From NCBI GenBank assembly GCA_963969395.1, contig OZ017799.1, positions 15,564,501 to 15,628,500 on the forward strand: 64,000 nt of DNA, written 5' to 3'. Below are positions 22,691 through 45,740 of the stretch, piece by piece. The position numbers were made by a program, and so were the translations under genes. The stretch's first letter is position 1; the number at the start of each line of letters is the position of its first letter. Under the pieces are notes generated by a model, which saw only the letters and a list, made by a program, of their open reading frames with translations, had not been told where the DNA came from and did not search any database. Origin of the DNA: Pseudoscleropodium purum. Its lineage: Eukaryota > Streptophyta > Bryopsida > Hypnales > Brachytheciaceae.

Positions 22691-23049
22691 CTTGCAACGT
22701 CATATTTGTAAACCCTGTCAATTTGTAGAAGCTATTTACTACATAATTGCAATAGCTTTCTCTATATATGCCATTCTTTTCCTCAAATTGATCACTCCAC
22801 CACATTTAGCTCAACAACCATCTGCAAATACTCAAGATGGAATGCAAAATGCATGTAATATATATCCAAGTGATCCACTTTAGGGTCTAGTCACTTACAA
22901 ATGCACTTGAACTTGGCCTTGAGTGCCTTCTTTTTGTTGCAATTGGTGATGTTGAAGAAGAAATTCGGATATTCCAATTGTAGAAACTCAATGGGTGGCA
23001 CAATAGTGTCGACGCCCAATAGACATGTAGGGCCGTCAACCCTCGATTT

Positions 23050-23057
23050 TCCCTTGA
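23050..23057 (+). repeat. Left 8-bp target-site duplication of the large hAT element
   Basis: TCCCTTGA directly precedes the CAGGGTTGAC end and is repeated exactly after the opposite end, at 36076-36083. Eight bases is the diagnostic hAT duplication length. Confidence 0.93.
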
Positions 23058-26000
23058 CAGGGTTGACGAATCTCTACGTCCGCCTCAAAATAGCGTCCGT
23101 TTTCCGGACGTCCGGACACACAGACGCTAGGGGACGCAGCGTCCCTCTCGCCGTCGAAAGGCGGACGCGTGGGGCTTTTTGTTTTGATTGTTTTCACCAA
23201 TGAGAGATTGAGAGTGAAGTCATTTTGATTTTGATTTTTCTTATATTGCAATTGCGATTCAATAGAGTTGTATATCACTATTTATGTAAAAGCTAAAATA
23301 TGAAATATATTTTTAATTTTTTTTGTTGAATTTCATTTTGATTTAGAAACAAAATCACTTTAAAATCCAGCGAGATGTATATCATCAATAAACAAACAAT
23401 TTTATAATAAAATGATTGAAGAAACCATTGTCATTTGTCAACATGAGCTCCATATATGATAAGTAACTAAACAATCAAACATCTAAATTCACATCTCCAC
23501 AATTCCTATGGACGCCAATTCACATCTCCTCTAACCTCAGCCCCACTACTCTCTCCTGCAGCTCTCCGTTCAAAATCTTCATTATCGGAGTCATCTTCAT
23601 TGTCGGAGTCATCTTCATTGTTGGAATCAAGTATCGTTGTCTCCTTCAAGTCTTCTCTCGAAGTAGGTTTACTCCATTCTTTCGAATTTAATTTTTCTTT
23701 TTTTACTTTGACAGAACGATTAAAGGCTTTTTGAATAGGAACCTTTCTTTTCTTTCTATTTGACAAAGTAGCAACATTTTCATCAAGAGGGGTCCTATTC
23801 TTCATTGGAGAGATAGCAAAAGGTTGCATTTCTCTTTTCGCTTTCACGTTACTCGATTCTTGAATCATCAATCTCGATGTAGGGTCGACATGTCCATGAA
23901 CGGTTATCTCTACTTTGGCTTTCTTTTGAAGTAATAGAGTGTCCTTTGTTGATTTGATGGGTTCTTGCGCCATTCCTTTTCCTAAAATGCGAGCACACAA
24001 AGATGCCAATGGCATCCGATCACTATCCATATCACTTAAGCTTGTAGGTGATGACGCTACTTTCCGTAGATTACCGCCTGTAGAAATTTCTTTGGAAATG
24101 TTCATTAGGCGTTTTCCATATTCAAAGCTTTGAGAATCATTCAATCGTGTGCTAACAGACTTCAACGGTATTGGTGAAAGAGCACTAGATCTCGGTACTT
24201 CAAAAATTGACTTTATTGGCTCCTATCCTTTATTACTCTTCACAATTGCCGAATTTGTAACTGCCATCCCAAGTGAATCATTATTTTTCTGTACCGCAAT
24301 ATTTGGTTCCCCCTCATCACCACTATTGTTGCCCACATCTTTTGAAATGTCCACCTCCATGACCGCATCTTCTTTTTTATTGTTTCTTTGTACTACATTT
24401 AATGCCACAGATGGAGATTGAGAAATTAAAACTTCTTCATTTCTCCCATCATCACCAATAGCATTCTCATTGATTTTCACCTATTTGGCAATAGCATTTG
24501 CCTTTTCCGATAGAATGTTTTCGCTATTCAAGAATCCCATTCTATTGTAATATGTAGTTAAAGAAGGTAGATTCGCTTGTACTCCTACATTGTCCTCATC
24601 TTCACAAAAGGTATATGCATCGTTTGCATTGTTGGGAACGACATCCTTGCGGTTTAGATGATAATCATGTGTATCATTCACCAAATTGGGAAAGCCTTCC
24701 ACAACATCTTCATCTCCCCATGCTGTAGCACGATTGAAGTCATCTCCGCCATCTACAGCTGAAAGGGCCCTTTCCAAATCCTCGTCATCATCGTCATCAT
24801 CGTCTTCTAACGTCGGTCTATTTGAATCCTCTGATTCCATCGGATCCACATTATCATTATACCATTTTTTTTCATCTTTTTCCTTCGATGCGTTTAATAC
24901 TTTGGAATTGGTATACACGTACACCAAATCCGCTACTCTCTCCGGCTTCAATTTATTTCGAGATTTGTTGTGAACAAAAGAATAGTTGCTCCAATTCCGT
25001 TCACATGAAGATAATGACATCGGTTGAGCCAATATCCTCTTCGCTAATGGAGCTATAAACTTGCCACATGCACCTTCAAAATCCCACCAAGCATGTGCAG
25101 ACAACATTTGATCTCCCGGATTCAACATATTGTAGAATGGAGGTTCCTTGTGTCGAAAAGCCACAAATTCCTTCACCACTGCTACACATTCATCCGGTTT
25201 ACATATTCTCTCCAAAACTTTTTTACATCTTGACATTGCATCTGCGTCATCCGCTAGCTCTTTGTCATGAAAAAGGTATGGATTCAAAAGAGCTGCGGCT
25301 GATTGGAGATTATTGTCCACCATTCTTCTTCGGGCATAAAAAGACTGTACCAATGGAATTGCAAGTTCTTCTAGCAAACAAAATGGTGGACTTTGTAATC
25401 CGTTCAAGTGCTTCTCTAACTTCCTCATGATATGCAACACCTTCCCCATGCATGGTGATTTTGAATCCAAATCGCGGAGTGCACATATGATTGGTTCAAC
25501 CATCTCCACATAATTGATGGACCGATTCCAAAAATGGTCATCAAGAACAATTTTCTTCACTGCTAAGGCCAAGTCTTTTGGTTGGACTTTGGCTCCACGT
25601 TTCTTCTTGAGAGTATGTACATACTTAACCCATTGCGGATCTACCACCGTTTGTTCCAATACTCCTCTCAATTTTGTCAAACGCTCCATCATGATAAATT
25701 TAGAGGCGAACCTTGTATCCCCAGGCATCAAGAGACCAAGATTTGGCGAATACTTTCGCAATAGAGCTAGCGGCATATGTCTCTTCCTGATAAATTTAGC
25801 TACAAGAACTCCTTTATCCAATTTGGAAGCAATCCATTTCTATGTAGCCCAATCCTTCAACAACAAATTCAATGCATGTACCACGCACCCTTGGTAAAAA
25901 ATATGAGGATATTTTGCAGATATTACATCCCATACGGACGGATTCACGGGAGCATTATCCGTACTTATTAACACGACGTTCTTGGACCCCACTTGTTCAA

Positions 26001-26315
26001 TGAACTTTTCCAACATAGCTGCCAAGTACTCCGCATTTTTTTCACAACCACTTGTATCCACAGATCCAAGAAATTCTTTACTTGCGGATGATACAAGCAT
26101 GGCATTGATGAGAGGTCAATTAGTCACGGAGCTCCATCCATCAATGGAAAATGTTGCTCCAAATTTTCGAATGCTATCTTCAATCCGTGCATTCAACTGT
26201 ATCTGAATGTTGGTCTTCACCTCATTCAACAATTTGTACCGAAGGTCGTGGTATGAGGGAGGAATGTATGGCCTACCAAACGCAGCCGTTTTCTTCACTG
26301 CTTCTTGTCGCAGCA

Positions 26316-29300
26316 CAGGGCAGGTCAATTCCCCATTATACTCACAAAAATCGCTCTAGAGTATAACTAAGTGACTCTAAAGATCGAACCCACGAGATCC
26401 TGTGAAGTATCTAGCTCTATTAAGCAGTTAAGCTAAGTCAGTATCCCAATCTTACTTTCCGGTCCTAGATCTAGGACCAGAAATACCACCCCACCGGATA
26501 ACTATAGACCGGATTTCCCCTTCTTCCGGTCCTACTAACTATCCGGTCCATACAAATACCCAAATCCCAGGATCTCACAACTTCCGATCCTGGAAATCCG
26601 TCCTGACCAATCCGGTCCGGATGGTCATCATGTATCCGTAATCCTATCCGGTTTAGTTTTGCCTCTGTTTCACCATCAGAGGGGTCGCCGCTTACATTTG
26701 AGAGTGGTAGGCCCACCACTCCTTCCGTGACTAATAGTAGCTGAAGACCCACTGTCCTACTTCCTAAACTCCTAAGCTAATCCGGATCCGGTTTGGTTCT
26801 TCACAACAATCCAGATAGCAATCCGGGTTGTAGGTCACACAAAGACCCCACACTCGACCCTCTCGTACTACAACGACCTTGATGCTACTTCCGATCCGTG
26901 CGAAGACAGGTGGTTACAAGTGCACCCGTCCGTTCCAACATCAACTAAAGTTCTTTCGTTACCCATACGGGTGGTGAGACCTCACAGGAGATCGGACACT
27001 CGACCGGATTTCCCACCCGGGAGTTCTAGCGCAGCTAAGGAATCCCTCCCTACCCGCCTAGCCTAACAACGGCTTTCTCACCCGGAATCTCAAACTCTAG
27101 ACGTGCTGAGGAACTAAGTTCACTCCCAACTCTTTGATACCTACTCACATGCACCTAGGATCGGAAATAAAACACCAAGGGGAGAAATCACTCGCAAACC
27201 GGCTCGTACTATCCTAACTCCACATCATACAATCCTGTCGCGTTGGAGAGAGACACACAATGAGGAGAAGAGAAAGGTATAAGAAGTTTGCAAAATGAAA
27301 AACTCCCAGTTCCCCTCTTAGGAACCGATTTATATACAAAGGGTAAAAACCCTAAAAGTACAAAAAAGAGCGGAAAACCCGTGGGGGTCCGTCGCCATCC
27401 TAATCTAACTTCCAGCTAACCTAATACTGTTGAGCCGGATCCGGATCCGGATCCGCTCCTACTCCTAACTGGAATCAAAATCCTATCTACTCTACAACCC
27501 TAGATCCTATTGTCGGGCTTCCGACCTCCGGAACCAGCTCCTCGAAGACTTCACTCAAGTTCCGGATCCGTTCCCCCTCCGCAGGGTTAGATCCGGGTGA
27601 AGACTCCAGGTCGATTGTGATATCCGGTCTCCTACCCAGAGTCTCAGCTCGGGTAGACTTCTTGGACTCGGGAGTCCAATCCTTCCTATCCTTCTGAATG
27701 GTCGCGTCCGGAAAGATATCCGGTAGCGAGATGTCCGAAAGATGTATGCCCTTGGAGCACGTTGCTCCAGTCAGCTTCCGGCTGCTTTCCTCAATCCGGT
27801 CCGCAGCATTCCGCCCCTCCACCATTGCCGTCTCCACTTGCTCAGCGAAGTCGGCGAGAATCCGGACCATCTGGGAACCGGATAGTTTCTTCTCTTCGTG
27901 GATCTTCTCGTCGAAGAGCTTCGCTTTGGCGGCGGCCGTTCCGGTTTCTCCCAGGGTCGCCTTGATTCGCTCGGCTATCTTCCGAGTTTCCTCCGCCATC
28001 TCCTGAGTGGCCGTCACGTCTTCTTGATAGGCAAAAAGAGTTGCCTTCAGGTTATCCACTTCCTCCTGCAACCGGCGGATCTCTGCTTCCTATTTCCGGG
28101 TCTCTTCCGGATTGGTGATGCACTCCGCCACCTGTTCTGCCAACTTGCTGTCCGGTGGCGCATCTACCAACTTTCCGATCGCCGCAAGCGTCTTGTGCTT
28201 GACATCCCAATCCGCCCTGATGTTGCAGAGGACGTTGATAAGACCGTTGAACGGATCTTGCATTTCCGGGTCTCCCCCGGAAACGGTCTTCTCGGCTTCC
28301 GGTTTCTCTTCCGAGGCCGGTCTGTCTTGACTGGGAGGCGTCCCGCGCTTGTGTGGAGGCGTCAACTTCTGTCGCTTGATCGGCGGCATCGGCTCCTCCT
28401 CTTCCTCGCTCGACTCCCGTTCTGATCCGGAATCGGATTCGGCCTCATCATCCGTTTCCGACTCCCCATACTTCAGGAGGACTTCCTGAGTCTTCCACAC
28501 CTTCTCCTCTGTGTCGGTGAGGACTTGGTGTTCTCGATAGAGGTGGAAGAGGTAAGGGCACACTGGAGTGGCCCTTTTCTTCCCAACCCTACTAACGAGC
28601 TGGGCCACGAGATCGGAAATGATCCGTGCCCAGTCCACTTTCCGGGTACCACTGAGGGCACCGAAAATGGTGTTGCCGAGGGTGATCGTTACCCTGGTCG
28701 GCTTTTCCGGGTGAAGAACCGGAACCAGGAATTGCAGGAGCCGACGGTGTCGGTCATCTACGCAATCCTCGACTGCGTATCCGTCCTTCGGGTTGACGGC
28801 TCTCTGGAACTTCCCTCGGACAAACTCATCCTTCCGGTTTGCCATCCCTAAACCTCCTGCCCGGAAACCGTAAACACCTCTCCACATTCCCTCGTTCCAG
28901 CGGACGGGAGTTCCTCTCACGGTGTTGTCAAACTGGTTGGATAGCTTTCCGAGGAGCTCTTTGACCATTCTCTCCTCCCTAAAACCCCAGGGTTTCTCTG
29001 CAAACCCTAGGCAACCCATGGATTTGAGATCCTCCATGAGTTGAGACTTTTCCGGCTCTATGGAGGGAATAACCGGAATGACTTTCCGGAGTTTCACCTC
29101 GCCTCCAGAGGGACTCGCTGGTCTCGACCTACGTAGCGGCGGCATTCTCACTTCAATCTATCTCACTCTCTCCTAGCCGCATGTCCCGTTCCTCACGTTC
29201 TCTCTCCGATCTCAACCGGAATCAAAACAAACAGAACACAAACGCACAAACGCCAAAAACTCAACCGCGCACGCTCAAGGTCGAGTTTCTAAAAGGGGGT

Positions 29301-29592
29301 GCAACAGTGAAAGCTCCTCCTTTTATAGTCCCTGGACCCTTTCCGGTTTGTCATCATGAATCCGGTTTACCATCATAATCCGGTTCATCATCATAATCCG
29401 GTTCTAGACCTAATCCGTGTTGCATTCCGTTTCCGTCGTTAGTTACTCTTGACCGGATTAGATCCAAGAGGCCCACTACTTCACATTCCGTGCTAATTTT
29501 GAGTTTTCCTTCTCCACCTTATCGGATCCGGTTCCCTAATGACTAGTTTTCGTTCCTATTTTGGTGTATACTAAGAAAATCAAAATTTTAAG
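26316..29592 (-). mobile_element. About 3.3-kb insertion nested in the hAT transposase gene, unknown family
   Basis: It separates two halves of one transposase domain and differs in base composition, being dense in TCCGG/ATCCGG motifs. On the minus strand it has a TATA-like ACTATAAAAGG near 29320 ahead of a long ORF, and a second TATATAAATCGG near 27330. The two flanks share an ordered set of short motifs (GTCATCATG, AGGCCCAC, TTCCGTG), which could be very diverged terminal repeats, but no clean LTR pair or target duplication is visible. Short sequences TGTCGCAG and TGCGACA lie in inverted orientation at the two borders. Exact ends are uncertain by tens of bases. Confidence 0.65.
27487..29151 (-). 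pseudogene. Unrecognised 554-codon frame with one internal stop, gag-like in layout
   Basis: Two open stretches (29151-28090 and 28071-27487) are in one frame, separated by a TAG at 28090-28092. The product starts with a basic, Pro-rich leader and a globular middle (GTRKVDWARIISDLVAQLV, CPYLFHLYREHQVL). An acidic Ser/Glu linker and a basic stretch follow, then a C-terminal helical coiled-coil-like region (EAEIRRLQEEVDNLK, ATQEMAEETRKIAERIK). No zinc knuckle, protease or polymerase is seen. I do not recognise the family. The layout would suit a capsid-like protein of a retroelement or a plant mobile-domain protein, but this is only inference. Confidence 0.55.
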
Positions 29593-30439
29593 TTGCGACA
29601 CTTTTTTAAAAGCTGGATTTCGAGCCACGGAAAATGGTATATTCGCCGAATAAAAAAAATTTGTCCACACTGAATGTAATTTGCGTCTATGACCTTCTTC
29701 AAACCCATTCACTAAGTTGCCTTGCCTCTGAGGCCTAGAACTTGATGCCCTCGGGGTTTCACGTTCACCAGAAGCTTCCGTACTCAAAGTCATTTCAGTT
29801 GTGGCACATACCATTGATACCAATTCTTTGGATGCTGGACAAGAGTCTTCGTGGTCAGAATGCGACACAACCTTTCCGGCCGAAAACTCTTGGACATCTG
29901 AAGGGCTAGGGTTGCCATCCACATTGTCCATTACAACACGTTTTGGAAAAACTCCGCAATGTCGAAATAAATCTCGAACTGCCATTGATAATCGTAGACA
30001 AAGGCTCACCCCTTTATCACGTACACCTCCAGGCCCAGAATAGCCTAAGTGGCTGAACATACGGCTTAGCTTCCTTGACATGCTCGCTTTGCAAAGCCTA
30101 CATTTTACTTTACCACCTTCTTGTACACTAAACCAAGGAGAAAAATCCCTCGTCGATTTGGCCACCATACTGACAAGTGTATGTTTTACCTCAATTTCAA
30201 AAGAAACCAATAAAATGTTTTAAATTTGAAATTCACAATGTGACAATATATACAATATCAATGAAATTAGTCACACAAAGCTTTGAAAATCAAAGTCCCT
30301 CCGTCCACCGAACTATGCATTACCAAGCAAGAGACACAATAAATTGAAGCTCATAGCCCTTGGAAATCTTAGCGTTCGGTTTTTCGAGAGTGAATACCAA
30401 AGCTTCTCTTCTAACATTTATAGTCCCATCCAGAAAATT

Positions 30440-30720
30440 AAAGGTTCATTTTTAGGGTTTCCGTTCAAAAACAAGCAACGGCCCGGACGGGGCTGAAGCG
30501 GACGGGTCGACGGGCGGACAGGCCAAATGGGGGCAGGCAGGTGGACAGGCCAGACAGGTCGGACGCGGCGGACGTTGCGGTCTGACAGGATTGTCCGCAC
30601 TGTCCGCCTTCCGACACCGTCCGCGCTTTGGACACACCAACTGCCCCACTTAAACACTGACCGCCAACGGCGTCCGCCCAGTTGTCCATTGGAGCATCCT
30701 ATAAGGCCGATATTACTCAA
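30440..30720. repeat. GC-rich GTCCGCC/GGCGGAC array upstream of the hAT transposase
   Basis: A sharp GC island in AT-rich DNA, built of irregular GGCGGAC, GGACAGG and GTCCGCC units. It lies about 230 bp before the transposase start on the minus strand, in promoter position. It shares its motif with the element termini and with the second internal array. Confidence 0.8.
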
Positions 30721-30812
30721 AAAGAGCGGTAACATTTCAAAAAAAAAACAGCCTAATAATCACTGCTAAATGAGGATCAATGTAATTGATTTATCATTTT
30801 AAAAAAAAAATG

Positions 30813-30848
30813 TAAACCCTAAACCCTATACCCTAATTACCCTAAACC
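30813..30848. repeat. Short interstitial telomere-like repeat
   Basis: Degenerate (CCCTAAA) units: AAACCCTAAACCCTATACCC, then further CCCTAA copies. Confidence 0.75.
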
Positions 30849-33479
30849 TTTTCTTTTCTCCCCTAAATTGTTTTACGAATGAGGGGAATGTGGTTAAGTT
30901 GAATATGTTTGGATTATTTACTCATATTATCCTTCTAAATAGGTTTTGAGAAGATCTGAAGATGGTGGAGATTTTTTTAAAGTTCATTAGGAAATCAAAT
31001 GTTTTGCAGAAATAATCAATTCTTTTTTCATCGTAAGCAAATGAAATTTAAAAAAAAGGCCCCAATACATAATTAGAATAACAGTTTAATGGATTTCAAC
31101 CTCATGATATTTAATGAAAGGTTGTGTTTTCTAATTAGAAGTGCATCACAATCTTCAAATGAACATCGAGTCTTTCATATTTTTTAATGAAATTTTGATT
31201 AGATTTGAAAACAAAGAAAAAGAATCAATGTTTTAACTTTCAAATCATGTATGGCTATATTTTTCCTTAAAAACATACAAAAATTCGTTACTTCAGTTGG
31301 TTGAGAAGAATACATTATACACTTATACATGTGCTATATTTATTTTAAAGGGTAATTCCAATATTCTTATTTCAGATGTTTTTAAATATTAATTTTTAAA
31401 AAGAGGGTTCATTGTTTAAAGATCTAAAAAATTGACAAACATAATTTCTATTATAAATAGGAATTGAATTTGGAATTCGAATTTGGAAATGATTCAAATG
31501 AACAAGATATTGATTATAAAATATTTCTTCGTTTGAGTTTTCAAAATGAATTCACGAAACAATTGCAAACTTTTGAACTTAGGTATATGATATTGTTTTC
31601 GGTTTGTACTTTGTAGAGTATAATACTTCAATTTTAATCCTAAATAAATGAAAAAATTCCACATGAATGAAATGTTTCTATGTATTGCACAAAGATTTCT
31701 ACCAATTACTATGATAATTAAATACATTGTTACATTTCATAAAATATTCTACATAGAAAGAAAAAATCATTTCAGTTTTCAATCATGATAAAGGATGTCT
31801 TCTACTCTTTCTGTTATATGTTCGTTTTGTATAACGTGTACATTGTACAATCTTTGAGAGTAGGGGAGTTCATTTTTGACTCTCATTAAAATAGAAAATA
31901 TATTTGTGGTTGGATTTTGAAATCATTATCACATTATGTATTCTACGGTCTTGCAAGAATGCATCTTGCTCCTCCCTTTGAATCCTTTTGATATATATAT
32001 ATATATTTTTTTTTCTTTCTTGTAGGGCTCTTGTTCTCTTGTTCTCTTCATTTGACCAGCCTATTTGGCTTGGCTCTTAGTTTTTTGTTTTTTTAATACA
32101 ATGGTTTATGCATATGTTATAAAAAATATATATTATTTATTTAAAATTAATATATTGATGAACAAACGCATAAAGGCATTGAATGCTTTCACATTTAAAG
32201 TTATAAATCTATCATAAATCACTCTTGCAAATTTGAATGATTGAATCGAAAATTTGAAAATGTAATTACAAGAGCTTTCAATTCAATCAATTGCATAAAT
32301 CATAAATGTTGAAATGCAACTCGTATGAGTTTAGCATCTATGAAGATTAATTCATGCCATCCACATGCAATTTTCCAATTTAATAAAATGCAATTGAGTA
32401 CTTCAATTTCTTTCCCTTCAATTCTCCAAGTAACATTTACTTCATATCTTTCTCTATTTGTTTATCTATTTTTTGGGAACAAATGGAGAAACCATCTTTG
32501 TCTATATTTGAACATGCACTCTTATTTGATTGATGAAGAATAGATCTATGAAATATATAATCATTGATTTGTTCATGTTGATTTATCTAATATATTTTAT
32601 GTATGTATATATATATATATATATATATATCAATCATTAAAAGAGTATGAAAGACAAGATTGACAGATTGTGTTCGAATGTTGTTGATTTTGAAATGATT
32701 TAGTACTATATCATTTATAAGAATATGATAATAGTGTTATGTTATAATATTCCTAAAACAATTGCAACAAATATTAAAATACATGCTAAGTTAGGTTTGT
32801 TAGCCTACCAATTGTTCATTAATAGACATAATTGAGTAACCCCCTTAAATGAAACACTCAATATCTAATATCTTACAATCCAAATGGTGGATTTGTCTAA
32901 AATTTTTTCTACATCTTTTCCAACTAATTTACTACAAGATCCTACGGTTACATATGCCCAAAAGTATTTTTCTTCCAAGACTTGGTATTTGCACTACTAA
33001 TGGTAGTTTTGAAGTGTTTTTAGTGAAAAGAACTTTAGGGGCTAAACATCTATACCGTTAGATTTTGAAAGAAGAACAATTTGCTTCATTGGGGATAACT
33101 ATAAGTCCATGCTCTTTTTCGATAGCCAAAACACACTTGCAAGGACTTGAACATTTAGCGATTTACTAAGTGATTAGACGTCAACTAATTCAATTTAATA
33201 GTAGAATTTTTATTCAACTACCTTCTTACAATTGCTTTATACACAATGCAACGTGAATATTTGGGTACATATATTAAACGTCGCAATCCTTTCGTGAATT
33301 TTTGCACATTTTAGCTCATATCTTTGTACAAAAATATCATTTACTAAGAATTCATAAATTTGGTCATAAAGGAAGGCTACCTTTTTTAATCTCAAATTTT
33401 ACATTGAATGAATGAAAAGTTAGTTGAACTATACAGTGCCATGAAGACCTCTGTTTATCGTGCAAAATATGGGTTTAGG
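30849..33479. other. AT-rich spacer inside the hAT element
   Basis: No coding region recognised between the two divergent genes. It contains a (TA)n microsatellite at about 32601-32630 and a dispersed repeat near 32933-33048 that recurs outside the element. Confidence 0.6.
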
Positions 33480-33890
33480 GTCGCTTTAGGGTCAAACCGC
33501 CCCGTCCGCCCTCGTACCCGTCTTCCCCATCCGCCCAGACCCCCGTCCGCCCCGATTCCTGTCCGCCGTCCGCCCCGTCCGCCCTGTCCGCCCCTTCCGC
33601 CCTGTCCGCCCCATCCGCCCCAATACCCGTCCGCCCTGTCCGTCGGATTCGGCGTCCGCCCTGACTGCCCCGTCCGCCTTGATACCCGTCCGCCCCGTTA
33701 CGGTGATGCGTCCGCCCCCCCCTCCCGGACCGTCCGATCCGATGGACGCCAGATTTGTCCGCCCGTGGCCATCCGATCGGGCGGACGGGGCTCTAGGGTT
33801 TCGGGGAGGCGGACGGCCGATCCATCCGCCACCCCCGGCCCGTCCGATCGGGCGGATGGTTTAGGGCCGTCCGCATTGTCACTTTTGCTT
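33480..33890. repeat. GC-rich GTCCGCCC array upstream of the kinase-like cargo gene
   Basis: About 400 bp of irregular 8-12 bp units based on GTCCGCC(C/T), ending about 180 bp before the cargo ATG. Apparent Pro/Arg-rich open frames across it are composition artefacts. Confidence 0.85.
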
Positions 33891-34069
33891 TGCCCCTTGT
33901 GAATGCAAGGTGGAGCGGAGAGCTTGGTGGTTCATCTTCCATTGGCTCCTTTCCAAGGCAAGGCAAGAGTGGTTTATTGGAGCCTCCTTGTTGCCAATTT
34001 TTTGGACACTTGCGCGTGAATTCAATTTCAAATTAAAAAATTTGATTTATATCAATTTCATTTGTCACG

Positions 34070-35562
34070 ATGACGAAGGGGAAGAAAAAGGTTGCTAAGC
34101 TTAAACATGGAGAAGGACCATCAAACTTGGAAGTAGCTCGCCAAAGTCCTTCGGAAGAATGCAAGAAATTCATGATTGAGCGCATCGTTCAATTTTATGA
34201 ATCGGAAACAACATTGCCTTTAGACAATAAGTACATCAGATATCAAGAGGAGTGCGTGTCTAAATTCAAGGTAGACATGACACAGATGTTGTTGGATGCA
34301 TTGAATGTGGCAAAGTGGCATGACGAAATGCATAAAACGTACTTCACCAAATGTTTGGAGAACAAGGTTCATGACGCTTTGTGGAATTCCAAAGTCATTT
34401 TGGTTAAATATGGCAAGGAATATCGACCCAATGACGCCCAGTTTGAAAAAATGATTCTGAAAGCGAACTTATTTAGGGGGCGATGTGCTCCATTTGCCAA
34501 AACGCACAATCGAGTTGGTTCAATTGGTTGGTGGAAAAGCAATGATAGAGTTGCTGAAGCGGAAAGGACCAAACGGCACTTGATAGCACTTCCAAATACA
34601 GCACGCATGATTGCTGTTGATGATAAAACGATGAGAGGTGGATATGCAACGATTCGAAAGGTTCGTATTGAAGGATGCCCAGGAATACTTCCTTATTGGG
34701 AGTTTGCGGCGAAGAAATTCATTCACCACCAAACTCAACCCGATCTTGCACAGCTAGAACATCAAAACGAATCAATGGCTGTTCGAATTCCACACGTGGG
34801 TGTGATACGATTTGCTGCAGTGCACGGAACGACGTGTGAAGGTTATGTGTATTGGTGGAATGGTGGAACTCTTCGACAAATGTTGAATATGGATAAGGAC
34901 TATCCAGACAACATTCAAATCCGTTTCATGTATACGAATCCAACCGAAGAGGAGGTTGTAAAAGCTCACCATTTAGGACGATATCGGAAGAAGCGCATGG
35001 AGTTGACATGGACGTTTATGCATATAATGTATGTAGTGCATCTTGCTGGACATTTGCACAATGATCTTTCTCCGGACAACATCTTATTGCATTTTCCAGA
35101 GGATGAGTCACGTGTGTACATTGGAGTTTGCGATTGGGGCATACCACCTTAGCTTCTTAGCCAATGAAGTCTTTGTACACATTTACATCAGCAAATGAGA
35201 TGAAACAGACTTTGCAGAGGAGATGGTGGGTGGATCCACGTATTGCATATTTGCATAAAGCAGGTGCAGATGTGGAAGTCATTCCGATGTATTCATGTAA
35301 GTCGGAAGAGTATGCCATTCGAAAAATTGCTCGGCGGATGAATGGAAACAACATGTCAGAGGCGTATTTCAACGTGCTACTTAAAACACCTAGTGCGACA
35401 CAATTTGCCTTTCATGACTTTGCAAAAGTATTTTATGCTTACTTGAAGGGCATTTCTTCGAAGACTGACGATGAAAATACTAGTTTGGCCCATGTGATTA
35501 CGCGATTTTCTAATACATATCGTTGGCTGATGCCAGATGAACATTTCCGCCATTTATATTAA
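34070..35562 (+). pseudogene. Kinase-like cargo gene of the hAT element, with frameshift and stop
   Basis: The first frame (34070-35152) encodes 360 aa. A basic start and a helical region of about 180 residues of unknown family precede a protein-kinase-like fold: RGGYATIRKV as a reduced glycine loop (G190), AAKKF with K215 in the VAIK position, HNDLSPDNILL with D332 and N337 in the catalytic loop, and CDWG with D355 replacing DFG. A one-base shift plus a TAG just after CDWG breaks the frame. The homologous frame resumes at 35164 with SLYTFTSANEMKQTLQRRWWVDP, where WVDP occupies the APE position, and ends at 35562. Lys, the HxD Asp, Asn and the DxG Asp remain, so the ancestor may have been active, although HRD has become HND. 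Substrate is unknown. Confidence 0.75.
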
Positions 35563-35894
35563 ATTGGTAGTGCAGAAGTAGTAGTTGAATAGGTTATATA
35601 GGCATTAAAAATTAGTTTAGAAATATAGAGTTGGAATGAAAAAAATTATATGTGCAATTAGCCAAATGTGCACAATGTATGGTATTCTATATTAAATTCA
35701 ATATATTTTACCCATATTGATTATGTTTGTATTTGTGTTGATCTCGATTTTTTAAATAGTATATATATATATTTGAAGTCACAAACTTTTTTAATTTGCC
35801 TTCTGAAAATGAATTGGAATTTTTTCATAGTTTCAAGACTATCATGGACTTATGGTCAAACTTTATAATCTTTTAAATTGTTTAAAGATTAAGG

Positions 35895-36075
35895 GAGTGA
35901 CCGCGGGGCAGTTTGGGTAGGGCGGTCGAGGAAAATAGGGCCGTCAAAGCGGACGGGGCGGACGGGCAAGGCGGACAGACGGAGCAGTCCCGGCGGACGA
36001 TGCGTCCGCGAGGACTGCGAATGTCAGCGAACGCTGCGGACACAGCGTCCGCGTCCGGACGTCGTGTCAACCCTG
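35895..36075. repeat. GC-rich right subterminal region and terminal inverted repeat of the hAT element
   Basis: Contains repeated CGGACGGGGCGG, GCGTCCGCG and CCGGACGTC units and ends GTGTCAACCCTG. Reverse-complemented, it matches the left end of the 288-bp element (CCGGACG, GACGCGGACG, TGTGTCCGCAGCGT). Confidence 0.88.
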
Positions 36076-36083
36076 TCCCTTGA
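36076..36083 (+). repeat. Right 8-bp target-site duplication of the large hAT element
   Basis: TCCCTTGA, identical to the copy before the left end. Confidence 0.93.
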
Positions 36084-38421: not shown

Positions 38422-39420
38422 GCACTTGGAGTTGCGTTTGAGGGAGGAATTCAAAGCATTTGGACGAGGTCTTGGAGCTTGGAGGAGTAATCAGTCCTTT
38501 GTCACTTGTCACCTACAAACCATATAGTGTGAGTCATTTTTCCAAAATAAAAACTTTGGAGTGCATTTTTTTTAAAAAGGGGAAATTTTTTTGGAACTTT
38601 TGTTGGCTGGTTTGTGACGTTTGGAGTACATTTTAGGTGGGACATTGCTTATGGTAGTAATCAGACCTAGAGTAGGCTGGTTGCATGCTCCTAGTTTGAG
38701 TTTGTACTTAGAAAAGTACATTGGGAGCCCATTGTGGCTGATTTTGCACTTAGGTGCATTGTGGATTGTAATGGTGCCAATTGCCATCTATTGAGAGTCT
38801 TTGTGAGCCTTGGAAGCATATTTGAGTTGCTTGAGGTTTTTGCCATGCATGGGGGGCTGATTAGTGCCCTTGTGAGTGTGTGAGGCAATTCATGGACTTT
38901 GTGAACCCAAGAGGGCTGATTTGTGGCCATGTGAGCCATTGAGGGCCAATTAGGGTGTTTTAGTGGATTGGTGATCCATTGAGGGCTGATTGGAAGGCTT
39001 GAGTGCCTTGGAGTGTGGAGTACCCTATTTGTGAGGAGCATTGTGAGTTGGCTTGCTGAATTGAAGTAGCACTAGCCCATCATGTCCATGTGGTGGATTT
39101 GAGCTCCATTAGGGTCTGAATTCGTGTTGAGAGGAGGTGATGCACTTGTGAGGAGTGTTTTGTCCTTCATAAGGTTGTGAGGATCTTGGAAGGTCCTTGG
39201 AAGGGCTGATTGTTGCCATTTCAACCCAATTGGCTTCCAAGGGAGTGTTTGGAGGCTAAATTGACTTGGAGACACTTCGGGTGCTGCCAACAAGTGGGAG
39301 GTGTCCTTGGAAGGGCTGATTATTGCTGTTTTAGCCCAATTGGCTTCCAAGGGAGTGTTTGGAGGCTGAATTGACTTGGAGACACTTCGGGTGCTGCGAA
39401 CAAGTGGGAGGTGCTTCATC
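38422..39420 (+). other. Untranslated leader of the young copia element
   Basis: About 1 kb between primer site and gag ATG with no open frame of note on the plus strand. It is rich in recurring GAGGGCTGATT-type segments and ends with a 110-bp tandem duplication. Confidence 0.7.
39193..39412 (+). repeat. 110-bp tandem duplication just before gag
   Basis: Two copies starting GTCCTTGGAAGGGCTGATT and ending near AACAAGTGGGAGGT, with only a few mismatches. The second copy ends 8 bp before the gag ATG. Confidence 0.92.
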
Positions 39421-42400
39421 ATGTCATCAAGTGGAGGAGAGGGCGTGCGCATCATTGACAAGTTCAATGGGGAGAACTTTGGCATGTGGAAGTTCAAGAT
39501 GGAGATGATCCTTGCGGAGAAGGACTTGTGGGACGTGGTGGATGGGAGTGAGGAGCCTCCAAGTGAAGATGCTAATCCAAAGACCAAGAAGGGGTTTGAG
39601 AGGAAGGAGAAGAAGGCCTTTGCTCTCATTGCCATCAATCTTGCGGACCGGCAAATTGCACACATCCGCCATTGCAAGGGACCAGCCCAAGCATGGACCA
39701 CCCTTTGCAACATCCATGAGACCAAGAGCCTCTCCAACATCCTCTTTCTTCGCCGCAAGTTCTTCACTAGCAAGATGCAAGAGGAGGACGACATGTTGGA
39801 TCATGTCAACAAGATCAAGGCTCTTGCGAATGAGTTGGCTTGTTTGGAGGCACCCGTGACGGAGGGAGATGTGGTGATGACCTTGTTGGAGAGCTTGCCA
39901 CCATCTTATAAGTACCTCATCACCGCATTGGAGACAAGGCCCACCAAGGAGCTGACCTTGGAGTTTGTGACGGCTCGCTTGATGCATGAGGTGCCCAAGC
40001 GCAAGGAGAATGAGCCCCAAGGGGAGGGATCAGCCCTAGTCTCAAGACATGGCAAGGGAGGCAATACCAAGGCTTCCAAGGAGACAAGGACGTGCTTCAA
40101 GTGTGGCAAACCAGGCCACATTGCTAGGCATTGCAAGATCAGCCAAGACAAAGACAAGGAGAGTGCACACCAAGCTTCCAAAGAGGAGGAAGAGGAGGAG
40201 TTTGCCTTTGCCACACATGGAGGAGGGGAGAAGGCTAACATGTTTATTTGGATTGTGGACTCGGGAGCCACTCAACATATGACCAACCATCGTGATGCCT
40301 TCCACACCTATCAACCCATTTCGGGAAAGAAGATTTACTTGGGAGACAATGGTATGGTGGAGGCCCTTGGCATGGGGGAGATCCTTGTGGAGGTGATGGT
40401 GAAGGGTCAGCCCAAAAGGATCCAAATCCATGAGGTCCTCCATGTCCCCAAGTTGCATGCCAACTTGCTTTCGGTAAGCAAATTGTCTTTGGGAGGTTTG
40501 AAAGTGCATTTCAACATGGTGGTGTGTGTTGTGAGGACACCAAGTGGAGTCTTAATTGCATCAGCCCCTCGTGAGGGCAACTTGTACCTCCTCCATTTCA
40601 CCAAGGTGAATGGCACTTCCTTAGCGTGCGTGGCCCAAGTATCAGCCCATGAAGACCTTGTGGAGCTTTGGCATAGGAGGCTTGGGCACTTGAATGTGAA
40701 GAGCATGAAGAGCCTCCAACACATTGTGAAGGGGCTGAACCTCTCTTCTTGCAAGCATGATTGGAGTTCTATGGTGTGCAAGGGGTGCATTGAAGGCAAG
40801 CAAGCAAGGCAACCCTTCCCCAAAGATGGGGCCACAAGGGCGAGCAAACTATTGGAGCTTGTGCATTCCGATGTGTGCGGGCCAATGAAGACCACATCCA
40901 TTGGCGGAACAAGGTATTTCGTGACCTTCATTGATGATTTCTCTCATAAGATTTGGGTGTATATGCTGAAGTGCAAGAGTGAGGTGTTTGGGCGTTTTGA
41001 GACTTGGAAGGCCCTTGTGGAGGCCCAATCCGAGTGCAAGGTGAAGGTACTGCGATCGGATAATGGAGGGGAGTATGTGTCCAAGGCCTTTGAGGGGTAC
41101 TTGGAGGCCCATGGCATTGAGCACCACACTTCAGCCCCTTATACTCCTCAACAAAATGACGTAGCGGAGCGTGCCAATCGCACCATTGTGGAGATGGCAA
41201 GGGCCATGATTCATGGCCAAGGGCTAAAGTATGAGCTTTGGGGGGAGGCCGTGTCCAATGCGGTTTATACAAGGAATCAGTGCCCTACGCAAGCATTGAC
41301 AAGCAAGACACCCCAAGAAGCTTGGAGTGGGATCAGACCTCATGTGTCTCACATGTGCATCTTTGGGTGCATTGCCTATGCATTGGTTCCAAGTGCCAAG
41401 AGGACCAAGTTGGATGCCAAGGGCATCAAGTGTCTTTTCCTTGGCTATTGTGAGGGAACCAAGGCTTATAGGCTGATGTGTGTGGAGAGCAAGGCCATCA
41501 TCAAGAATAGAGATGTGACCTTCTTGGAGGATGGAGGTGCTGATCCTAAGCTCTTGGAGGTGAGCCCAAGTGGGAGTAGTGGAGGACCAACCCAAAAGAT
41601 GGGCACAACTCCAAGAGTGCACATGGAAGATGAAGGAGATGAAGATGAAGAAGATGAAGAGTTGGCGGAGCCCAAGAAGAAGGTGGCCACACCCCAAGGG
41701 AAGAGGCCATCAGCCCCTTCTCTAAGATCTTTACCAAGGGGGCAAGAGCGTGATCAACCCTTGGAAGAGCAAGATCAGCCTTTGGAGGAGCAAGACCAGC
41801 CCTTGGAGGAGCAAAAGGAGCCACGTTATCCAACAAGGACCCGCAAGCCCCTTGGAGATTGGTGGCTGAATCACATTCTTCCCCAACAACAAGAAGAACA
41901 AGCCAATGTGGCTTTCCTTGGAGATCCATCCACGCTTGGAGAGGTGTTGCGTTGCGAAGATACAAGCAAGTGGAAGGTGGCCATGCAAGAGGAGTACAAG
42001 GCCCTCATTGACAAAGGGACATGGGAACTTACAGCCCTCCCTCCCAAGAGATCAAGTGTGAGTTGTAAGTGGGTTTTCTCCACCAAAAGGGATGCTTTGG
42101 GTCATGTTGTGAGGTACAAGGCAAGGCTGGTTGCTAGGGGGTTCTCCCAAGTGGAGGGTGTGGATTTTAATGAGACTTTTGCTCCCGTTGCCAAGTTTAG
42201 CACCATCCGTTGTGTTGTGACTCTTGGGATAGCCATGGACTTGGAGATGCACCAAATGGATGTGAAGACGGCTTTTCTCAACCCCAAGCTCAAGGAGGTC
42301 ATCTACATGGATCAGCCCCAAGGTTTTGTACAAGAAGGCCAAGAGCATCTCAAGTGCAAGTTGAGGAAAGCCCTTCCCGGATTGAAGCAATCGGGGAGGG

Positions 42401-43569
42401 CATGGTACCAAGATATTGATGCCATGTTTGTGAGGAAGGGCTTCCTAAGAAGCCATGCTGATCACTCTTTGTACACCATGCAAAGTGGTGAGTTTTTGGT
42501 GATTGTGATCTTATATGTGGATGATCTGATCCTCCTTGCAAGTAGCATGACCAAGATGCTTGAGGTAAAGGCTATGCTCAAGGAGGAGTATAAGATGACG
42601 GATCTTGGAGAGCTAAGCTATTGCCTTGGAGTGGAGTTCAAGAGGGATAGGGTTGCCCGCACCATCACCATAAGCCAACGCAAGTACCTTGAAGAAATCC
42701 TCAAGCGCTTCAACATGGAGGAGTGCAAAGCCATAGGTACACCCCTTGACACTCATGTGAAGTTGCCCAAGCTCACGGATGCTGAATTTGGAGAGGTGAG
42801 GGCTGAAATGCAAGGTGTGCCTTACAAGGCAGCGGTTGGGTGCTTGATGTATGCCATGGTAGCCACAAGGCCTGATTTGGCCTTTCCGGTGAGTGTTGTG
42901 AGTCAACACATGTCCAAGTATGGCCCAATGCATTGGGCAGCGGTGAAGAGGGTAATGAGGTACCTTCAAGGCACACTTGGCATGGAGTTGCAACTTAGAG
43001 GTGCCCATGTGACTTTGCATGGGTATTGTGATGCGGATTGGGCGGGTGATGAGGGGGATAGGAGATCCACCACCGGCTACGTGTTTAAGCTTGGATTGGG
43101 TGCCATTACTTGGAATTCCAAGAGGCAGCCCACCATAGCTCTCTCTACAACGGAGGCTGAATACATGGCTATGAGCCAATGCACCAAAGAGGCCATTTGG
43201 TTGAGGCAACTCTTAGCTGATGTTGGTCTTGTCCAAGAGGGGAGCACACCAATTTGGTGTGACAACCAAGGGGCCATTGCTTTGGCCAAAAATCCCACCC
43301 ACCACTCTCATACGAAGCACATTGATGTGCAACACCATTTCATTCGTGAATGAGTGGAGGCTAAGGTGATTGAACTCAAGTATGTGCCTATCCAAGCTAT
43401 GGTTGTTGATGTGCTGACCAAGGCCCTTGGGAAGCCACAACACCACAACTTGATAGGGAAGATGGGCCTAGGAGCCTTTGACCACTCTCAAAGTGGGAGT
43501 GTTGAAGAATATGTACATATTAGTGTAGATTATGTACATTCAGCCCTAGGAGTAGTATTAGCCTCTTAG
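39421..43569 (+). pseudogene. Ty1/copia gag-pol polyprotein with a single in-frame TGA
   Basis: 1310 codons are open from the ATG, then a TGA at 43351-43353, then the same frame continues 71 codons and ends inside the 3' LTR. Domains in order: UBN2-type gag (about 1-200), zinc knuckle CFKCGKPGHIARHC (225-238), protease DSGAT (D280), GAG-pre-integrase (HLNVKSM), and integrase with D484, D547 and E583 (spacing 35 between the last two). A linker with a threefold DQPLEEQ repeat, RT with YVDD from Y1032, and RNase H with DADWAGD from D1204 follow. Only the last residues of RNase H (ELKYVPIQAMVVDVLTKAL) lie after the stop, so most activities may survive; loss of the C-terminus could still disable it. 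It is expressed, if at all, from the 5' LTR. Confidence 0.93.
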
Positions 43570-43756: not shown

Positions 43757-43931
43757 GTTGCATACAAAAAGCTAGATAAAAATTCTTTGTTCTTCAATAT
43801 GAAAATGATAGTGTGACCATCATTAGAGAAATTCTCAATCCTCTAGGGGATTTCTCTAGAGTAGCTAAAAGGACCCCATGCTTACATTTAACTTTGCTTA
43901 ATGACATATTTTTCCTCTATAGTCACTCACT

Positions 43932-44219
43932 CAGGGTTGTCAAGACATCCGGACGTCCGGGACGTTTGGACGCGGACGTTGTGTCCGCAGCGTCCACCTG
44001 TCCCCCATCCGCCCCGTCCGCCCGTCCGCCCGATTACGGCCGTCCGATCAACGCGCGGACTGATCTGGTCCGCACGATCTGGGCATCCGCCCCGTCCGTC
44101 TGCCCCGCCCGTCCGCTTTCCGACGGCGGTCGGGACGCTGCGTCCACTAGCGTCCGTGTGTCCGGACGTCCGGAAAACGGACGCTATTTTGGGGCGGACG
44201 TTAACATTCGTCAACCCTG
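43932..44219. mobile_element. 288-bp non-autonomous hAT element, same family as the 13-kb one
   Basis: Begins CAGGGTTGTCAAGACATCC and ends CGTCAACCCTG, with perfect CACTCACT duplications at 43924-43931 and 44220-44227. Its left part matches the right end of the large element and its right part matches the left end (shared AAAATAGCGTCCGTTTTCCG on the opposite strand). It has no coding capacity and is GC-rich throughout. Confidence 0.95.
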
Positions 44220-45740
44220 CACTCACTTGAAGTTGTGATGTTCTATGACTGCTAGTGGCTCAAAACCTAAATACAATTAGGTAAATAATTAGAGTTCAAG
44301 TATTGTAATGCACATTAACCATGATTATTTCATAACTTGTTTTCTAATCAAGTTCTAAAAAAAAGCAAATGTCAAAAATAGTTCAATGACATCTACCATC
44401 AAGAGTTCTTTTAATGGCATTATAATAGACTTAATTCATTGACAATTGGTGAGAATGAAGTGTGAAGAGGATATTTTTATAGAAAAATTAAATGTCTATG
44501 GTGAATCTTCAAAGGGTATGGAATATTTAGAAGATAGATCTCTCATTGTCAAATGCAAGAATTGTGTTCAAAGTCAAATTTCAGTCCCCATTTAGGCATA
44601 GTAGAATGATTTTTTCAAAAACTTTGAATAAACAAAATAGAAAATTAAGTTATTTTTCATCTCCAAAAATTTGCTTCTTTTCACATCTTCAAATACGTTA
44701 AATTAAGTGGCTTTTGTAACTAGTTGGAAGACATAAGAGTTTTCTAATTTTTTTGGTAGCTTGAAAATCCACTTCATTTTGCTTAATTTCATTGAATTTG
44801 CTTAATTTTCCAATTAAACACCATACATGTTTATCTGGTTGATTATTAAACAAATTTCTATTTCACCCTCATTACTAGAGTCCTAAAGTCTTTTACAAAA
44901 TTCACATATTCTGACAATGTAATGCACCTAGATGCCCCTACTAATTCTCAAGAGATTAATAGATTGGTTTGGTCACTCTAAAACAGGCTTCTAAATGGTT
45001 GAGAATTTTTCTAACGCCAAAGGATTCTTTTTGTCTACACCCTCCTTCCAAGGGTTTATTTAACCTCAAAATGAACCATTGGTCTTGACTTTGCAAAATG
45101 GAAAATTAAATTGTAGATTCTTACAAAGTAGTTTTGGAATGGATATTTTGAAATTTTGATGCATTCCAATTGTAAACTTATATTCACTATATTTAAATAT
45201 GATTGATAATTTTTTATTAGGAATATGCACCAACTTACTCTATTAATCCCTAAAGTCCCATTGTCCCCTTAAGAAACGAAATGAATTTTGATCAAGATTT
45301 TAAATAAGCTCCAATATTCTCAATATTTGTCTTAATTTTCTAAAACTTTTTCTAAAGATATGAAAACAAATATCTATTAGGGAATAAAATATTTATATCA
45401 ATTGGTCCCTAGGAGAAAAATTTATAGCACAATAAACCTAAATTTTTGTTTAGTGGGGGGGGGGGGGAAAAGATCAAAAGAATCCCACAAAAACTTAAAA
45501 TAAATTTTTTTAAGAACTCTTTTCTTATAATCTACAAGATGCAAGTATCCAAAACAATTTTAAAACATTCCCTTAATTGTCAAATAATATTTCATACAAT
45601 CGTTTTTTTGCATTCCTTATGATTCTATATATTTCATTTTTGCAATTTAGACTAATTATAAGATGATACATGACACTTGAATATTGAAATAGAATAGTGA
45701 TTTTAAAGTAAGAGGTTCTAAAAGTGCACAAGTTCTAAAA

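Follow-up and report, generated by a model that had tools for sequence, protein, structure and literature searches.

The hAT element at the locus and its copies

The stretch of the moss Pseudoscleropodium purum analysed here (64,000 nucleotides of contig OZ017799.1, positions 15,564,501 to 15,628,500; called the window) contains at 23058-36075 a hAT element with a transposase gene on the minus strand and a protein kinase gene on the plus strand. This feature is one damaged copy, with both genes broken, of a hAT DNA transposon; the family is high-copy and has a native length of about 9.7 kb. The kinase is very probably a standing component of the family. The parts of the window copy are as follows.

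23050-23057: left 8-bp target site duplication, TCCCTTGA
23058-36075, no strand assigned: whole hAT element as present, 13018 bp; minus the nested unit, the native element has about 9.7 kb
23058-23067, plus strand: left terminal inverted repeat, 10 bp, CAGGGTTGAC
23506-30168, minus strand: hAT transposase gene, broken by the nested unit and by at least two further frame breaks
34067-35562, plus strand: protein kinase gene; in the window copy its frame is broken near 35150, and 496-498 codons are open in other copies
36066-36075, minus strand: right terminal inverted repeat, CAGGGTTGAC on the minus strand
36076-36083: right 8-bp target site duplication, TCCCTTGA, a perfect match to the left one

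An earlier note on this DNA had claimed inverted ends within identical 8-bp flanks, and this was borne out by the CAGGGTTGAC tips at 23058 and 36075 and by TCCCTTGA on both sides. Read on the plus strand, the element begins with CAGGGTTGAC and ends with GTCAACCCTG. The exact 10-mer occurs three times in the window, at the two ends of the large element and at one end of a short copy. With up to one mismatch there are 7 matches against a chance expectation of 3.2, and 7 was reached in 6 of 100 shuffles. The 10-mer by itself is weak evidence; the case rests on the duplication and the other copies. Over the 313-Mb genome, CAGGGTTGAC was counted 3361 + 3359 times, as compared to 146 + 118 for the reversed control.

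A DNA search of the genome with the whole element, in which the best 7 of 8334 candidates were scored, gave five other full copies of 9589-9728 bp. Pairwise identity among these and the window copy is 95.3-97.2% when the nested unit is left out. The duplications of the five copies all differ: GATATCTC, CTTTTATT, GGTACCTT and AGTCCTTA are exact, and AAGATTAT/AAGATTGT agree at seven of eight positions. Thirteen further copies have both flanks readable, with duplications that are exact in seven, 7/8 in four, 5/8 in one and unmatched in one. The earlier note had proposed a search for conserved ends with different 8-bp duplications, and these were found in the five full copies and in 11 further ones at 7/8 or better. 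In some copies the CAGGGTTGAC tips carry one or two changes. The consensus of the Ac subgroup of hAT duplications has T at position 2 and A at position 7, and that of the Buster subgroup has TA at positions 4-5. Exact duplications number 13, from 12 large copies and the short one; T stands at position 2 in six of them, A at position 7 in four, and TA at 4-5 in none.

The transposase is contained in one open frame of 1155 codons in the full copy L010. Its product matches DUF659 (8.1e-33) and the hAT dimerisation region PF05699 (1.2e-8; 35.1 bits against a cut-off of 21.4); in the window copy the dimerisation domain lies at 24481-25839 (E 9.7e-9). We found 13 database relatives and aligned 11 of them, at 36-52% identity. 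D237 (in DGW), D298 (in TDNAS) and E615 (in ERNWS) are invariant in all 12 aligned sequences, L010 included, and we take them to be the hAT catalytic D, D and E positions. Judged by its sequence, the element has the 8-bp duplication, short inverted repeats, dimerisation region and presumed catalytic D/D/E of a hAT transposon.

A separate mobile element nested in the window copy

The length of 13 kb had been regarded in the earlier note as unusual for a plant hAT element. This was not sustained: the native element has 9.6-9.7 kb, and the window copy is 13 kb long because a 3295-bp unit, inserted later at 26306-29600, sits inside it.

26301-26305: left 5-bp duplication of the nested unit, CTTCT
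26306-29600, minus strand: nested mobile element, 3295 bp, tips TGTCGCAGC / TGTCGCAAC, separate from the hAT element
29601-29605: right 5-bp duplication of the nested unit, CTTTT (4/5)

This segment is absent from all five other full copies, which read straight through the site, and a native size of 13 kb is ruled out by the uninterrupted site. The unit also stands alone in the genome, with at least 41 full-length matches including the window's own (best 40 of 1131 candidates scored). It has 9-bp inverted tips, TGTCGCAGC. Eleven of its 5-bp duplications were read: nine are exact (L014, L015 in its outer pair, L073-L076 and three more places), and those of L077 and the window copy agree at 4/5. 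An open reading frame (ORF) on the minus strand, 29157-27487, has about 556 codons with one in-frame stop in the window copy and has 396 relatives; no Pfam domain was found in the 120 of these that were listed.

The earlier note had described a transposon with a transposase and a second gene. The kinase at 34067-35562 is a real second gene. The ORFs at 27487-29157 are ruled out as hAT cargo, because they lie inside a separate mobile element that has its own 5-bp duplications and is absent from five of five copies.

No long terminal repeats (LTRs) were found for the 3295-bp unit. It was also considered as half of an LTR pair; at C40:21.96-21.98 Mb two units stand side by side, each with a duplication of its own, and are thus separate insertions. 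The TG...CA tips and 5-bp duplications of the unit would also fit a solo LTR. At L015, a fragment of 354 bp from this element lies between two full units of it, within one shared outer 5-bp duplication, GTCAT.

Linkage of the kinase to the transposon

The linkage was examined from both genes among best-scoring candidates, 40 of 1414 for the transposase and 113 of 1423 for the kinase. The transposase copies were selected independently of their kinase, as a best-scoring and non-random sample. Thirty of the 30 best-scoring kinase loci, the window and L012 among them, run to within 120 bp of the right end of the element. Their alignment reaches the last base in 22, falls one base short in two, and stops within 12 bp in four and within 120 bp in two. 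At 20 of these loci the left end was sought, and 14 have it within the predicted 610 bp. Of these 14, 13 have a readable tip, and the tip of L024 falls outside.

From the side of the transposase, one of the 113 listed kinases lies within 12 kb in 15 of the 40 cases, as compared to 0.35 expected by arithmetic, and all 15 are on the opposite strand. Three more of the 40 transposases belong to the full copies L009, L010 and L013, and a kinase was seen at 17 of 22 probed places. The kinase accompanies 35 of the 40 in all. As read from these sequences, it is a standing component of the native element, with predicted transcription divergent from that of the transposase.

The kinase gene

The 113 kinase copies scored are all at least 90% identical. 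The family is divergent and has 79 database relatives. Two of the named ones are from the moss Ceratodon purpureus: P0024 (M758_3G001500), with 51% identity over 91% of the query, and P0040 (KC19_VG055000), with 43% over 90%, which stands for 126 member sequences. Their sources label them as hypothetical or as protein kinase domain-containing. The third is from a metagenome-assembled genome labelled Bacilli bacterium (76% identity; the contig has 2919 bases) and is taken to be contamination. Pattern searches gave 22 stretches in genome_contigs and 31 in viral_contigs, and no kinase relative was confirmed in either set.

K217, E236, D334, N339 and D357 are invariant in all of the 20 relatives chosen from the 79 for alignment, which share only 27-80% identity with the first sequence aligned. 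Presumably these are the ATP-binding Lys, the helix-C Glu, the catalytic Asp, the Asn and the Asp of DFG. The motifs are changed to HND in place of HRD and DWG in place of DFG. By alignment, the element's kinase keeps its putative catalytic residues.

The evidence by other means is mixed. Among six relatives scanned, P0024 alone reached a Pfam cut-off (PK_Tyr_Ser-Thr, 23.2 against 23.1). A structure model of the relative P0001 had a predicted local distance difference test score (pLDDT) of 83.4 and a predicted template modelling score (pTM) of 0.65. Compared with the PDB, it gave 1546 matches at E ≤0.001; the 50 shown are all kinase domains, and the best is at 2.1e-8.

The genome also has multiple copies of a second kinase family, a divergent one (38% to P0066), at L066-L071 (C44:12.30 Mb and other places). 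Its repeats are about 98% identical over 4-4.5 kb, with no CAGGGTTGAC tips within 1.5 kb in the four loci read. Next to it is a related pair of ORFs; one of the two has 760 codons and gives a weak RING-finger match that stays below the cut-off. More than one kind of moss repeat may carry kinases. At C48:8306556-8308124, beside L018/L047, the expected position of the left end of the hAT copy L018 is occupied by a copy of this second family, perhaps a nested repeat.

CGTCCG arrays in the element

Four blocks of CGTCCG/CGGACG sites occur in the element.

23077-23167: block at the left end, 5 sites
30484-30676: block upstream of the transposase, 6 sites
33503-33873: block upstream of the kinase, 14 sites
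35950-36061: block at the right end, 7 sites

They are at fixed places in six of six copies, as compared to 4 sites in the other 50.7 kb of the window. A single extra site was found in four of the six copies, and the nested unit of the window copy has three. The transposase of Ac binds subterminal repeats. By analogy with these, we propose that the moss transposase may bind all four blocks, so that it would regulate its own gene and the kinase besides recognising the ends.

A proposed role of the kinase in the element

We favour a role of the kinase in the element's own cycle over the alternatives discussed below. The reading is that of a moss two-gene hAT lineage in which the kinase is an old and selected partner of the transposase, the genes and the ends are under the same transposase-binding arrays, and transposition would be under the control of the kinase, which would phosphorylate either the transposase or a silencing factor of the host. 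We put its probability at roughly 0.3. Because the ends, duplications and transposase are those of hAT, movement would be by cut-and-paste: the transposase would bind near the ends, cut at the CAGGGTTGAC tips and insert the element with 8-bp duplications. Short relatives with CAGGGTTGAC tips would probably be moved by the same transposase. On the favoured reading, movement might be tuned by the kinase through phosphorylation of the transposase or of a host factor with a limiting effect on transposition.

The kinase relative P0022 (54%) and the transposase relative P0205 (52%) each list a single ENA contig of 27639 bp. This is probably one and the same contig, which would place the same gene pair in another organism. 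We also compared variants in 34 kinase copies. Those seen at least six times were 20 synonymous to 9 not, as compared to 77:187 for singletons (p = 3.8e-5), and those seen three to five times (26:54) did not differ from singletons (p = 0.58). Similarity to the kinase had been the basis of choice for 30 of the 34 copies, and the fairer part is formed by the 138 codons outside the query.

Several observations weigh against this account of the element and its kinase. The linkage counts rest on the best-scoring lists given above. The kinase was not seen at its predicted place for five of the 40 transposases, where a nested unit (one), the middle of an element (one) or no match (three) was found. 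The left end was not seen in the predicted 610 bp at six of 20 kinase loci, and two of the 13 readable flank pairs match below 7/8. The N-terminal BED zinc finger of the transposase (PF02892) scores 15.0-16.4 bits against a cut-off of 20.6. The Pkinase match of the window copy (E 0.015) is below the Pfam cut-off, as are five of the six relatives scanned. A sequence search of solved structures with a kinase relative gave none at E <0.001 (best 0.16), and the superposition of the P0001 model is loose, with TM (template modelling score) of 0.29-0.39 by query length among the 50 rows shown. In the 138 codons outside the query, the contrast of 3:2 for common variants with 15:60 for singletons is not significant (p = 0.07). 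Selection on the kinase is suggested, is partly an artefact of the choice of copies, and is not firmly established.

The comparison outside the query also suits the explanation that the kinase is a passenger: an ancestral element would have picked up a host gene a single time, and this gene would have multiplied since with no role for element or host. Pack-type elements catch host genes. A frame of more than 480 codons is missing in 20 of the 34 kinase copies read, and the kinase singletons look neutral, like those of the transposase in the six full copies (92 synonymous to 213 not). A passenger fits less well with a kinase that accompanies 35 of 40 transposases, with catalytic positions invariant in 20 of 20 relatives of such low identity, and with relatives of both genes, at about 53% identity, that are probably on one contig. 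The common variants are also mostly synonymous, though the choice of copies biases this in part. We consider the passenger explanation possible and somewhat doubtful.

Alternatively, the kinase could be cargo of use to the host, for instance in signalling under stress or in defence, with the element spreading partly for that reason. The nearly complete frame in 14 of the 34 copies and the multicopy relatives in Ceratodon agree with this. No fixed host copy was seen, however, since all 30 loci read sit at the right end of an element, and the high copy number with decay of most copies fits a gene of the element better. We consider host-serving cargo unlikely.

The second kinase family, multicopy and with no CAGGGTTGAC tips near its four loci read, raises another explanation: the kinase of the window might belong to an independent repeat that stands beside hAT copies by chance or moves with several kinds of element. 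The 30 loci of the window family all end at the same transposon end, and in all 15 pairs the kinase has the same order and strand with respect to the transposase, which makes this explanation very improbable. A 13-kb mosaic of two ends from different elements joined by chance, a possibility raised in the earlier note, was looked for and ruled out: CAGGGTTGAC tips are very common in the genome and an unrelated element does sit inside, but the duplication around both ends is perfect and the five other copies align end to end except for the nested unit.

Relation to known systems

The moss element is like other members of the hAT superfamily (Ac/hobo/Tam3 type) in its 8-bp duplications, short CAGGG tips, DUF659 and dimerisation region, and short non-autonomous relatives. 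Unlike usual hAT elements, it has a length of about 9.7 kb, a kinase gene on the opposite strand, and CGTCCG arrays also upstream of both genes. Autonomous hAT elements usually have one gene. Pack-type elements such as Pack-MULEs are DNA transposons with host-like gene sequence, usually gene fragments, and without a transposase; in contrast, the moss family is high-copy and has a full-length kinase frame next to its transposase. No kinase-bearing hAT element was found in the literature searched, which comprised open-licence papers by title and abstract.

In PMC12506042, the usual values for hAT are given as 8-bp duplications and tips of 5-27 bp. The same paper describes ToxhAT/ToxTA of fungi, a class II element of 14 kb that includes a non-transposase gene. 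It is single copy per genome, with 2-bp TA duplications and 74-bp tips, and has been reassigned to the Tc1/Mariner type (PMC12506042). As described there, it is like the moss element in holding a non-transposase gene and differs in copy number, duplication and tips. Because of this reassignment, ToxhAT/ToxTA is not a hAT precedent.

The moss family raises the question whether a eukaryotic DNA transposon controls its own movement by phosphorylation. If the favoured reading is true, it would be a DNA transposon with its own signalling enzyme. Counts of kinase genes in mosses may be inflated by transposon copies; the P0040 cluster of 126 Ceratodon sequences has a putative link to a transposon.

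Short relatives and neighbouring sequences

The earlier note had also described a separate short copy of the element, and one is indeed present in the window.

43932-44219, no strand assigned: short relative resembling a miniature inverted-repeat transposable element (MITE), 288 bp, with the duplication CACTCACT at 43924-43931 and 44220-44227

This copy matches both ends of the large element, the left over 118 bp at 89% and the right in shorter pieces. Its left tip has one mismatch. Such short relatives are common, because 27 inward-facing tip pairs, with tip starts 214-374 bp apart, were found among 100 tip places listed (54 of the 100).

A near-tip, GAGGGTTGAC (one mismatch), lies on the minus strand at 23035-23044, 13 bp outside the left end of the large element. 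It may be due to chance or be the remnant of another tip. The short hAT copy is adjoined by an uninterrupted polyprotein frame of 1327 codons at 39370-43353, which we take from its sequence to be that of a Copia-like retrotransposon.

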